A stretch of 64,000 nt of DNA. Origin: an uncultured bacterium. Lineage in GTDB: Bacteria > Desulfobacterota_D > UBA1144. The notes beneath the pieces are model-generated. The model was not told the origin of the DNA and ran no database searches. It was given only the letters and a program-made list of their open reading frames with translations. Position 1 is the first letter of the stretch; every line of letters starts with the position of its first letter. A program made the translations under genes and the position numbers. Location of the stretch: positions 1 through 64,000 of the forward strand of contig CAJWZP010000003.1 in NCBI GenBank assembly GCA_913050325.1, given 5' to 3'. Below, in pieces: positions 5,815 through 50,511 of this stretch.

Positions 5815-7491
5815 ATGAATAATAAAGTTGAAGGCGGTTTTGCACTAGTAAAAACACTTAAGGATTTAGGTGTAAAAGATATTTTCACACTTGCTGGTGG
5901 ACACATAAATCCCATCTATAATGCATGTAAAGAATTAGGAATTAGATTAATTGACACCCATCATGAACAAGGAGCTTCTATGGCTGCTGACGCATATGGA
6001 AGGGTTACTAAAACACCTGGAATTTGTCTAATCACCGCAGGCCCTGGTCTCACCAATACAGTTACAGGTATGTCAGGTGCATTTTTATCAAATTCTCCAT
6101 GTATTTTTTTATCAGGTAAATCAGGGATTGAGGAAAATGATAGACTTCCACTTCAAGAGGTTGACCAAGAAGCAATGGTTAGACCTGTAACTAAATGGGC
6201 TAAAACAGTATATGATACAAAACGTATTCCTGAATACACAGCTAATGCATTCAAAATGGCATTAGCGGGTAGGCCTGGACCAGTTTATTTGGGCCTTCCA
6301 CATGAAGTTTTATATGAAAAAACTAATTTTAATGAATTTGATCAACCACAAACTAACTTTCCTTCTAATCCTGAAGTTTCAGATGAAGAAATAAATAAAA
6401 TAATTGATGCAATATCTTCTTGCTCCAGACCTCTAATAGTGGCAGGTAGTGGATCTTGGTATTCAAATTCTTCATCAGAAATTACAAGTTTTATAGAAAA
6501 TTTAAATGTTCCAATTTACACGTTAAATTTTGGAAGAGGTATTGTATCCGATTTACATCCAAATTGTTTAGGACAAGCAAGCCCATCAGCAATGAATGCT
6601 TTTAAAAGAGTTTCATCAGAAGCTGATTTAATTATATTACTGGGTGTAAGATTAAGTTTATACATAGGTTGGGGTAGAACATTTAATCCAGATGCAAAAG
6701 TGATACAAGTTGATATTGAACCTGAGGAAATTGGAAGAAATAGATTTGTAGATTTTCCGATTATTTCAGATGTAAATAAATTTTTAACAAAATTAAATTC
6801 TAATATTTCAGATACTAAAAATTTTAAAGATTGGATGAATTTAACCAGAGACTGGAAAGAGTTAGAATGGAAAGAAGTTGAAAAATTAAAATCTGATAAT
6901 TCAACTCCAATGCATGTTCTAAGAGTTGTTAATGCTGTTGAAGAAGCTCTGGGTGGAGAATGTATGATGTGTATTGATGGTGGAGATACACAAGCTTGGA
7001 CTGATTCATCCTATGTAATAAAAGAACCTGGAAACTATGTAAAGGGAGGACCTCTAGGTTGTATGGGAGTAGGAGTACCTTTTGCCATAGGATCTAAAGT
7101 AGCTTTTCCTAACAGACAAGTAGTTCTTATAAGCGGTGATGGAGCAGTTGGTATGAATCTTATGGAATTTGAATCTGCAGTTAGACACAACATTCCATTT
7201 TTATGTATTGTTTGTAATGATAAGTCCTGGGGAATGACTAAGCATCAACACTGGTTAAATTACGGTAAAGAAAATACTCCTACGGGCCATGAGATGCCAT
7301 TTATAAATTTTCATGAAATTGTTAAATCAATGGGTGGATATGGTGAGCTAGTTGAGAATCCTGAGGATTTAATTCCTGCAATTGAAAGATCAATCAAATC
7401 AGGTCTGCCATCTTTAATCAATGTTATTACTAATCCTGATGCAACTAGTGCTGCAACTCATGCAATAACCGCTATGATGACTCCAAAGTAA
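5815..7491 (+). CDS. ThDP-dependent enzyme, ILVBL / 2-hydroxyacyl-CoA lyase 2-like
   Basis: Thiamine-diphosphate enzyme of the acetolactate-synthase superfamily, 558 residues. The catalytic glutamate is E51 (HHEQGAS). The Mg-ThDP motif is intact, GDG at 441-443, followed by the NDKSWGM segment. The N-terminal run FTLAGGHINP ... TAGPGLTNTVT is much closer to animal ILVBL (HACL2, which cleaves 2-hydroxyacyl-CoAs in alpha-oxidation) than to anabolic acetolactate synthase. The real ilvN-ilvC cluster is elsewhere (47396-50511). Function as a 2-hydroxyacyl-CoA lyase is inference; a generic 2-oxoacid decarboxylase or a true AHAS are alternatives. GGAT four bases before ATG is a weak ribosome-binding site. 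Confidence 0.8.
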   Translation: MNNKVEGGFALVKTLKDLGVKDIFTLAGGHINPIYNACKELGIRLIDTHHEQGASMAADAYGRVTKTPGICLITAGPGLTNTVTGMSGAFLSNSPCIFLSGKSGIEENDRLPLQEVDQEAMVRPVTKWAKTVYDTKRIPEYTANAFKMALAGRPGPVYLGLPHEVLYEKTNFNEFDQPQTNFPSNPEVSDEEINKIIDAISSCSRPLIVAGSGSWYSNSSSEITSFIENLNVPIYTLNFGRGIVSDLHPNCLGQASPSAMNAFKRVSSEADLIILLGVRLSLYIGWGRTFNPDAKVIQVDIEPEEIGRNRFVDFPIISDVNKFLTKLNSNISDTKNFKDWMNLTRDWKELEWKEVEKLKSDNSTPMHVLRVVNAVEEALGGECMMCIDGGDTQAWTDSSYVIKEPGNYVKGGPLGCMGVGVPFAIGSKVAFPNRQVVLISGDGAVGMNLMEFESAVRHNIPFLCIVCNDKSWGMTKHQHWLNYGKENTPTGHEMPFINFHEIVKSMGGYGELVENPEDLIPAIERSIKSGLPSLINVITNPDATSAATHAITAMMTPK

Positions 7492-46740: not shown

Positions 46741-47373
46741 ATGTCTATTTTATCAATTGATACATCACTCAAGAATACTAGTATTAATATCATTTCAGGT
46801 AATGACTCAACAAATAAAATCTTACTTTCTGATAAGCCGAATCATTTTGAAGTTTTGTTGCCATTACTAAATGATGCAATAAAAGAATTAGAAATAAATT
46901 TAGAAGATATTAGTCAAATAAGAGTTAATACAGGACCTGGAAATTTAATGTCTCTTAGAATTGGAATAACAGTCGCTAATGTTTTGGCTTCAAATTTACA
47001 TATTCCAATATATGGTATTTCATCTTTTTATGCATATAATTTTCTAGCTAAAAATGATTTGAAAGATGTAATTGTTGCAATTTATATAAGAAATAATAAA
47101 TACTCCTTTGCTAGATTTAAGAAAAATACTAATATTATTTCAGAATATGATTTAAGAATATCAAAAGATAATTTTAAAGATGTAAATATTAGAAACAGTG
47201 TCCTTATTTCAGATATATTGGCTGATGAGTATCTACTTAACTTAGGTTTTCAAAAACAAAATCTTACAGCCGAAAACTTTAATAATCTTAATATGGATGA
47301 AATTAATTTTTTTATACAAAATGCAGTACCCATTAAACCAATTAATGATCATTCATATGTAGTTAATAATTAA
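46741..47373 (+). CDS. tsaB: tRNA t6A biosynthesis protein TsaB
   Basis: Partner of TsaD in threonylcarbamoyl transfer. 210 residues. It begins MSILSIDTSLKNTSINI (actin-like ATPase fold) and has NTGPGNLMSLRIGITVANVLA, the TsaB core motif. The middle is diverged. No RimI fusion is seen. It follows recA by 2 bp and precedes the ilvB-like gene by 22 bp. Confidence 0.85.
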   Translation: MSILSIDTSLKNTSINIISGNDSTNKILLSDKPNHFEVLLPLLNDAIKELEINLEDISQIRVNTGPGNLMSLRIGITVANVLASNLHIPIYGISSFYAYNFLAKNDLKDVIVAIYIRNNKYSFARFKKNTNIISEYDLRISKDNFKDVNIRNSVLISDILADEYLLNLGFQKQNLTAENFNNLNMDEINFFIQNAVPIKPINDHSYVVNN

Positions 47374-47395: not shown

Positions 47396-48937
47396 ATGAA
47401 AAAATTTTTAGGAGCAGAACTTTTCTTTGAAACCCTATATAAACTAGGGATTAAAATTATTTTTGGTCTCCCAGGAGGATATGTTTTAAAAATTTATGAT
47501 GTAATGCCATCATATTCTAAAAAAATAAAACATATTCTTACCAGGCATGAACAAGCTGCAACTCATATGGCAGATGGATTTTCTAGAGCAAGTGGATTAC
47601 CTGGAATTATTCTATGTACATCTGGACCAGCAGCAACAAATACAATAACAGGAATTTCTACTGCATATGATGATTCGGTCCCAGTTCTAATCTTTACAGG
47701 ACAAGTTCCAACACCTTTTTTAGGTAGCGATGCATTTCAAGAAGCTGATCATATAGGGATAACAAGAACTTGTACAAAACATAATACTTTGGTAAGAAAA
47801 ACTGTTGATTTACCAAAAGCAATTGCAGAGGCTTTTTATATTTCAAATACAGGTAGGACTGGACCAGTTTTAGTTGATATGCCCAAGGATGTATTAATTA
47901 GTGAGAGTGAATTTAAGTTTCCTAAATCTATTCAACTTAAAAGCTACAAAGATAAATTTCCATTAATTAAAAAAGATTATATGAGCTTTATAGAGAAATT
48001 TAAAAATTCTAAAAAACCTTTATTTTTGTTTGGGAAAGGCGCATGTAGTTCTGATTCAAGCTCTAAAATTAAAAAAATATTAAATAATTTTAAATTACCC
48101 GCTGTTACTTCATTACTAGCACTGGGCCTTTTAAATAAAAGTAAATATAACTATGGATTAATTGGAAGTCATGGATCAGATTCCTCTTCAAAACTCTTAA
48201 AAGATTGTGATCTATTAATTTCTATTGGCTGTGATTTAAAAAAAATTGTTTCAGAGGATGAATTAAAAAATAAGAGTGTCATTAATATCAATATTGATAA
48301 GGTAGATCTAAATAATAAAAGAAAATCAAATTTAAATATTCATTGTGATTCAACAGAATTTTTAAATAAATTATTAAAAGAAAAAAATGTTAATTTTTCC
48401 TGGGATTCTTTAGAGCTAGAGGAATTGAAAATGCTTGATATTAAGAATAAAGATAAAGAAATAAAATCAAATCCTAAGGCATACGTTATGCATAATATTT
48501 CCAAACTGCTACCTGAAAATACAATTTATTGTAGTGACTTTAGCTATGAAGATGTAAACCTCCAAAAATTTCTAAATATTACGGATTACAAAAATAATAT
48601 TCTTTCTGGTGGGAATGGAACTCCGGGATATGGTTTTCCAGCTGCAATTGGGGCGACTTTTTCTAGACCACGAAATAAAGTTGTTAGTATATCATCAGGT
48701 AAAAATTTCCAATTTAATATGCAAGAGATGATAGTTGCAGTTGAGCAGAAAATTAACCTAACTATAATTGTTTTAAATGATACTCATAAGAGTAAATACA
48801 AAGGTCCAAACTATGAATTACTAGCAAAATCCTTTGGAGTTAAATCTATAAGAGTAAAAAATAATAGTAATTTCGAAAAAAATATTAAAAGCTTTTTGAT
48901 TCGTAAGGGCGTTACATTAATCGAAATTCTTATTTGA
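47396..48937 (+). CDS. ilvB: acetolactate synthase large-subunit homologue with a degenerate ThDP site
   Basis: 513 residues, about 50-70 shorter than usual. The N-terminal half is ordinary: catalytic E52 in RHEQAATHMADGFSRA, SGPAATNTITGI, FLGSDAFQEADHIGITR, and the TGRTGPVLVDMPKD region. The C-terminal ThDP domain is not. The GDG motif that binds Mg-ThDP is SGKN at 434-437 (aspartate lost). GTPGYG replaces the usual GTMG. About 20 residues of the mobile loop after LN are missing. It is followed by ilvN and ilvC. It could be non-catalytic, structural, or a divergent active enzyme; the HACL2-like gene at 5815 has an intact motif. Confidence 0.82.
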   Translation: MKKFLGAELFFETLYKLGIKIIFGLPGGYVLKIYDVMPSYSKKIKHILTRHEQAATHMADGFSRASGLPGIILCTSGPAATNTITGISTAYDDSVPVLIFTGQVPTPFLGSDAFQEADHIGITRTCTKHNTLVRKTVDLPKAIAEAFYISNTGRTGPVLVDMPKDVLISESEFKFPKSIQLKSYKDKFPLIKKDYMSFIEKFKNSKKPLFLFGKGACSSDSSSKIKKILNNFKLPAVTSLLALGLLNKSKYNYGLIGSHGSDSSSKLLKDCDLLISIGCDLKKIVSEDELKNKSVININIDKVDLNNKRKSNLNIHCDSTEFLNKLLKEKNVNFSWDSLELEELKMLDIKNKDKEIKSNPKAYVMHNISKLLPENTIYCSDFSYEDVNLQKFLNITDYKNNILSGGNGTPGYGFPAAIGATFSRPRNKVVSISSGKNFQFNMQEMIVAVEQKINLTIIVLNDTHKSKYKGPNYELLAKSFGVKSIRVKNNSNFEKNIKSFLIRKGVTLIEILI

Positions 48938-48983: not shown

Positions 48984-49463
48984 TTGAGACATGTAATATC
49001 AATTTTGGTTGATAATGAACCAGGTGTATTGGCAAGAATAGCTGGTTTGTTTACTGCAAGAGGTTTTAATATTGAAAGTTTGTGTGTAGCAGAAACCGAA
49101 AAACCTTCTTATTCAAGACTAACTCTAGTAACATCTGGTGATGATTGGATTATTGATCAAATCATAAAAAGATTTGAAAATATGATAAATGTTATAAAAG
49201 TTGATGATTTTAAATATGAGGAAAGTATTCAGAGAGAACTTTTAATTGCTAGGGTTTTTCCAACTTCAAAAACAAGGTCTGAGGTTCTAAGGGTAGCTGA
49301 CATATTTAGAGCCAAGGTTGTAGATGTTGGAACTAAGTCATATGCCTTGGAAATAACAGGTAGTAAAGATAAACTAGAAGCATTTGTATCCATTTTGAAA
49401 CCACTTGGTCTTAAAGAAATTAATAGAACAGGATTAATCTCTTTAAAGAGAGAAAAAAATTAA
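48984..49463 (+). CDS. ilvN: acetolactate synthase small (regulatory) subunit
   Basis: ACT-domain regulator of acetolactate synthase, 159 residues. It begins RHVISILVDNEPGVLARIAG, the IlvN signature. GLFTARGFNIESLCVAETE is conserved, and the second ACT-like half follows (ELLIARVFPTSKTRSEVLRVA). The initiator is TTG with GAGGAG upstream. It would normally pair with IlvB; the adjacent IlvB homologue lacks a normal ThDP site. Confidence 0.94.
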   Translation: MRHVISILVDNEPGVLARIAGLFTARGFNIESLCVAETEKPSYSRLTLVTSGDDWIIDQIIKRFENMINVIKVDDFKYEESIQRELLIARVFPTSKTRSEVLRVADIFRAKVVDVGTKSYALEITGSKDKLEAFVSILKPLGLKEINRTGLISLKREKN

Positions 49464-49482
49464 AAAACTAAAATATATATAG

Positions 49483-50511
<1,029 letters not shown>

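Follow-up and report, generated by a model that had tools for sequence, protein, structure and literature searches.

The ilvB homologue at positions 47396–48937 of the stretch of DNA analysed here (64,000 nucleotides, henceforth the window) sits beside ilvN and ilvC but has lost the Mg-ThDP motif of acetolactate synthase (ALS, also acetohydroxyacid synthase, AHAS), which raises the question of what such a protein could do. The initial annotation considered three answers, namely that the protein is a catalytically dead scaffold for IlvN, that it works in a heteromer, or that another ThDP enzyme, for example the one encoded at 5815, provides the activity.

The IlvB Orthologue of the Window

The homologue, here termed subunit A, comprises 513 aa and is encoded, like all features of the window given below, on the plus strand, in a frame that is open as initially described. 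It contains the three ThDP-enzyme Pfam domains, of which Pyr (alpha) is intact whereas FAD (beta) and PP (gamma) are degenerate, and aligns with ALS large subunits over its whole length. As a single chain it does not qualify as an ALS, lacking the GDG Mg-ThDP motif and scoring 427 bits on TIGR00118 against a cut-off of 538 bits. On the numbering of Arabidopsis (At) AHAS, used for all residues given below unless stated otherwise, residues S434, G435, K436, and N437 of A occupy the column of the GDGS motif (At 537–540), so that the Mg ligand Asp538 is replaced by Gly435. The alignment thereby bears out the substitution of SGKN for GDGS noted at the outset, although its codons are 48695–48706 and not 48692–48703 as first given, an offset of three bases. 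The change of GTMG to GTPG (M513 to P) and the absence of about 20 residues from the mobile loop are likewise borne out; what is left of the loop motif NNxHHGMVRQW is encoded at 48776–48808, with Asp or Glu at the position of the Mg ligand Asn565. Two further losses had gone unnoticed. The C-terminal lid is entirely gone beyond At 645, and in the middle domain the segment SIGCDLKKIVSEDEL (48221–48265) replaces the ARFDDR motif, R373, D376, and R377 of RFDDR (At 373–377) being D, K, and I in all 14 A sequences of the family. The N-terminal half was correctly described as intact. The catalytic Glu52 of A (At E144, within HEQ; codon 47549–47551) is kept in 14 of 14 sequences, as are nearly all other Pyr-side residues, including the motifs PGG, TSGP, GQVP, and DAFQ. 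Structure prediction of the A monomer from a 10-row alignment reached a modest confidence (pLDDT 66), sufficient to recover the AHAS fold and too low for the pocket.

The homologue search comprised 61 genomes and, as it extends outside the class, appears to cover all available class members. Judging from the literature on the group (PMC8115339), the family carrying A corresponds to the marine Candidatus Dadabacteria. An A orthologue with the identical set of losses is present in all 14 family genomes, which represent five genera. The position of Asp538 is Gly in every one of them, within the pattern S/T-G-x-N (x being K, T, N, I, or A). A sequencing or assembly error, named initially as a possible refutation, is ruled out, since homology continues in frame on either side of SGKN, which excludes a frameshift, and since the Gly recurs in all 14 genomes, which excludes a misassembly. 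The ratio dN/dS, calculated according to NG86 with some pairs saturated, stays well below 1 in each domain of A and is lowest in the Pyr domain (Pyr 0.02–0.05, middle 0.12–0.29, PP 0.05–0.19). The loss of an essentially invariant motif could in itself indicate a decaying pseudogene or an assembly artefact; the open frame, the recurrence of the same losses in 14 assemblies from five genera, and the constraint on each domain have virtually refuted that reading.

The intact regulatory subunit gene ilvN (48984–49463; 195 bits on TIGR00119, cut-off 56.9) and ilvC (49495–50511), encoding the next enzyme of the pathway, follow A in the order recA-tsaB-ilvB-ilvN-ilvC, which is the ancestral order of the class. 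Relatives with an intact GDG at this locus, initially named as a further possible refutation, do exist, but outside the family: there, a canonical IlvB with GDGS is encoded within tsaB-ilvB-ilvN-ilvC, and recA is seen where the locus reaches that far. Such relatives place the loss on the family stem, and the observation of a genuine loss stands. A is accordingly the orthologue of canonical IlvB at the ancestral ilvB locus, and its PP and FAD halves were lost on the family stem while ilvN and ilvC persisted beside it. The genome of the window also contains ilvD and leuA. As a separate observation, the adjacent tsaB (46741–47373) diverges fast, with about 32–44% identity within the family; the adjoining recA shows 81–95%.

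A Second Paralogue with Complementary Losses

The question whether the genome encodes another IlvB, raised in the initial annotation, can be answered in part affirmatively. A second paralogue that had been missed, subunit B (577 aa), is encoded near leuA on another contig of the same genome (G000:C1:169834-171564 without the stop codon, minus strand); no further IlvB at canonical score was found in this genome or in any of the 14 family genomes examined. The PP and FAD domains of B are canonical. RFDDR (R373, F374, D375, D376, R377) is present in 11 of 11 B sequences, and the GDG-N Mg-ThDP motif, the mobile loop with QW, and the C-terminal lid are kept, apart from H567, which one genome lacks, and a single unread base at D538. 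In the Pyr domain, B has lost the conserved ThDP and substrate pocket, with the exception of the catalytic Glu (kept in 10 of 10 readable sequences) and some others, e.g., K220. With 636 bits on TIGR00118, above the cut-off of 538, B would be annotated as an ordinary ALS; half of the invariant positions of its Pyr domain are lost despite this score. In B, dN/dS (NG86) is lowest in the PP domain, at about 0.01. The predicted monomer structure (10-row alignment, pLDDT 62) is of modest confidence and too low for the pocket.

B was found in 11 of the 14 family genomes, with A and B both present, for example, in G001. It was not found in G003 and G010, where the contig stops at, or short of, the site expected for B, or in G004, which is 80% complete and in which the neighbourhood gene was not found either. 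A and B do not share an operon. Where B loci could be read at length, a 265-aa gene, rnpA, and yidC (the latter two named by eye) lie on one side, and leuA lies on the other where the contig is long enough (G000, G006, G007, and G008). The 265-aa gene (L034:8002-8799 on G000:C1) lies 31 bases downstream of B, is conserved in the family loci read, has no Pfam match, and is possibly co-transcribed with B. In one genus, a 703-aa gene that resembles catalase-peroxidase by eye (L071:8912-11023 in G007; L159 in G010) is inserted between the two. Two acetoacetate-decarboxylase-like genes lie between leuA and B in G000 and G007 and are absent from G006 and G008 (L034:10682-12659 on G000:C1, the first matching PF06314; homologues in L069–L071 and L074–L076). 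They are mostly 89–97% identical between genera, their neighbours being far more diverged, and a recent transfer or an unusual constraint is possible.

The losses in A and B are mirror images of each other. On the Pyr side, G120, G121, G169, P170, Q195, V196, P197, D204, A205, and Q207 are kept in 14 of 14 A sequences and lost in B. On the PP/FAD side, M351, H352, R373, D375, D376, R377, Q487, H488, M513, D538, N565, M570, W574, and the lid are lost in most or all A sequences and, bar isolated exceptions or bases that could not be read, kept in 11 of 11 B sequences. The same picture emerges from a set of columns not chosen by hand, namely all those invariant in the canonical sequences of the class, Arabidopsis, and E. 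coli (57 in the Pyr domain, 92 in the middle plus PP domains): A retains 51 of 57 Pyr columns versus 29 of 92 elsewhere, and B retains 28 of 57 versus 87 of 92, the Fisher values of 1e-12 and 2e-10, respectively, being indicative as columns are not independent. Identity to canonical sequences in the Pyr, middle, and PP domains is 0.70, 0.19, and 0.36 for A and 0.43, 0.59, and 0.66 for B. The stems leading to A and B measure 0.38 and 1.61 in the Pyr tree and 3.6 and 0.45 in the PP tree. A and B thus display complementary and conserved losses in paralogues, of the type known from deoxyhypusine synthase (DHS).

A Putative Heteromeric Acetolactate Synthase

In AHAS, as known from the yeast and Arabidopsis structures, an active site combines the Pyr domain of one chain with PP and FAD domains belonging to its neighbour, and the FAD and substrate residues lie on the PP side. 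In ThDP enzymes of this group, whose site is assembled from Pyr and PP domains, the catalytic Glu belongs to the Pyr domain, and the GD-N motif is part of the PP domain (PMC2831816); in a model of the Thermus ALS, the active site also lies between neighbouring monomers (PMC4701669). Since the site spans the two subunits in this manner, an A:B dimer would possess one complete site. A would supply the Pyr half with the catalytic Glu52 and the surrounding pocket, and B the PP half (Mg-ThDP held via GDGS/N/H, RFDDR, mobile loop, and C-terminal lid) together with FAD, leaving one dead site, in which Pyr of B would meet PP of A. Neither A:A nor B:B homodimers would contain an intact site. IlvN would presumably regulate the A:B complex. 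We consider it probable (roughly 0.8), on the strength of these sequence patterns, that A and B form an obligate heteromeric ALS that arose by reciprocal degeneration. From the same patterns we infer that A and B would bind each other, that the mixed site would be active, and that acetolactate would be its product. Since none of the family genomes examined encodes a further IlvB of canonical level, and since ilvN, ilvC, ilvD, and leuA are retained, an A:B ALS would be the simplest account. Of the three initial options, the heteromer has thereby gained support through a partner with the complementary half-site.

Several observations count against a heteromer. The catalytic Glu persists in B, where a heteromer should leave the Pyr site idle, B was not found in three of 14 genomes (two contig-end cases and the one that is 80% complete), A and B do not share an operon, and new conserved residues occupy 28 of 63 lost Pyr positions of B. 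The retained Glu, the conservation of the altered pocket residues, and the passing score of B where A fails (636 and 427 bits against 538) would suit an arrangement in which B, its Pyr pocket rebuilt, is the ALS on its own, A serving IlvN as a regulatory or scaffold subunit without catalytic function. This arrangement appears unlikely. B lacks G120, G121, G169, P170, Q195, P197, and Q207, which canonical class members share with Arabidopsis and E. coli without exception, and there is no reason for a scaffold to retain its Pyr catalytic positions in 14 of 14 sequences under the strongest constraint in the protein. The complete retention of catalytic and ThDP-pocket residues in a Pyr domain with the lowest dN/dS of A likewise speaks against the initial option of a dead IlvN scaffold.

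As the sequence does not reveal substrate specificity with certainty, an A:B heterodimer with a composite site might catalyse a different ThDP reaction, with acetolactate formed by another route or branched-chain amino acids imported. The ALS-type residues of B (RFDDR, MVxQW, and the PGG of the lid) and of A (GQVP, SDAFQE, and K), the position of A with ilvN and ilvC and of B near leuA, and the presence of ilvD render this quite improbable. Still less probable is that A and B are pseudoenzymes and that the ThDP enzyme at 5815–7491 or one on contig C2 provides the ALS activity. Both carry an intact GDG motif and the Glu; however, the former, which would be outside the proposed system, has PRK05858 as its best NCBIfam match, with a score below cut-off, stays below the cut-off of the NCBIfam ALS models listed, and lacks both RFDDR and the MVxQW loop. 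Its similar-scoring homologues coexist with a normal IlvB across the class, which makes it a poor ALS candidate, contrary to the suggestion made initially. Furthermore, a mirror-image retention of halves would not be expected of pseudoenzymes.

The remaining puzzle of the proposed A:B enzyme concerns its dead site. Of the positions lost, 25 of 128 in the A middle and PP domains (R373D, D376K, R377I, Q487Y, D538G, S540N, and W574Y, for example) and 28 of 63 in the B Pyr domain (G120N, G121S, T167D, G169D, P170T, Q195H, and V196F, for example) have a new residue that is fixed in 90% or more of the family. The Pyr half of B is therefore not simply decaying. As many lost canonical residues on both sides have been replaced by one fixed residue, we tentatively suggest that the dead site was remodelled into a conserved pocket or plug of a new kind, e.g., a regulatory site, although this is a doubtful proposition. 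The new residues may represent a structural plug, a regulatory pocket, or slow drift. The Glu retained by B belongs to this same puzzle, the least understood part of the system.

Origin of the Pair

The genomes G039 and G045, which belong to another family of the class, carry a canonical-level IlvB and, in addition, a B-like paralogue with a degenerate Pyr domain (L047 on G039:C8; L066:7798-9531 on G045:C6), in which much of the Pyr pocket is already gone and HEQ is intact. B groups with these copies with a support of 98/96 in a tree of the middle and PP domains from which A was left out as a check for long-branch attraction; the PP domain alone does not resolve the grouping. B is an older paralogue. 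A plausible order of events would begin with a duplication. The copy would then have lost its Pyr half, which the original would have complemented, and in the family of the window the original would finally have lost its PP half. The B-like gene could have spread either by descent or by transfer. The class thus seems to hold successive stages, namely a canonical IlvB alone, a canonical IlvB with a Pyr-degenerate B-like copy (G039 and G045), and the divided A and B pair, which makes the order and the cost of each step testable.

Relation to Known Systems and Implications

The proposed pair resembles the biosynthetic AHAS (IlvB/IlvN; TIGR00118) in fold, gene order, small subunit, and predicted reaction, and each half-site has the canonical residues. 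In contrast to AHAS, whose catalytic subunits are homomeric and carry all residues in one chain, A and B each lack the opposite half and would form at most one site per dimer. Split-gene transketolase (PMC7661550) is the nearest ThDP case, its Pyr and PP parts residing on different chains of which neither is active alone, and the mammalian pyruvate dehydrogenase E1 heterotetramers named in the same source likewise assemble their ThDP site from Pyr and PP parts on different chains. In both, a gene has been cut into domains, whereas A and B are full-length homologues with half of their sites predicted to be dead. In soluble guanylate cyclase, the subunit interface is pseudo-symmetric, one of its two sites being functional and the other degenerate. 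This enzyme is a heterodimer of homologous subunits (PMC3765644), as A and B would be; in contrast to A and B, it is an unrelated eukaryotic enzyme with a role in signalling. The nearest mechanism known to us is that of the trypanosomatid deoxyhypusine synthase DHSc/DHSp (Afanador 2018, as cited in PMC7581365). This eukaryotic enzyme differs in fold, cofactor, and reaction, and the losses in A and B span whole domains of a ThDP enzyme. Neither DHS nor split-gene transketolase is a match at the level of membership; by its residues and context, the A/B pair is assigned as a putative ALS. No earlier report of such a division of ALS subunits, and nothing relevant on AHAS heterodimers or ThDP pseudoenzymes, was found in the open-access literature searched.

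The pair also holds a warning for annotation, as B would be labelled a normal ALS and A would be marked as dead or doubtful, each label being misleading. If the proposed division is true, it would represent a transition from a homo-oligomer to an obligate heteromer by reciprocal loss of half-sites, legible in sequence, in a central metabolic enzyme of bacteria. The replacement of one gene by two in a streamlined genome would then call for an explanation and, if the dead site was indeed rebuilt, one of the two identical sites of the enzyme would have been turned to another use.
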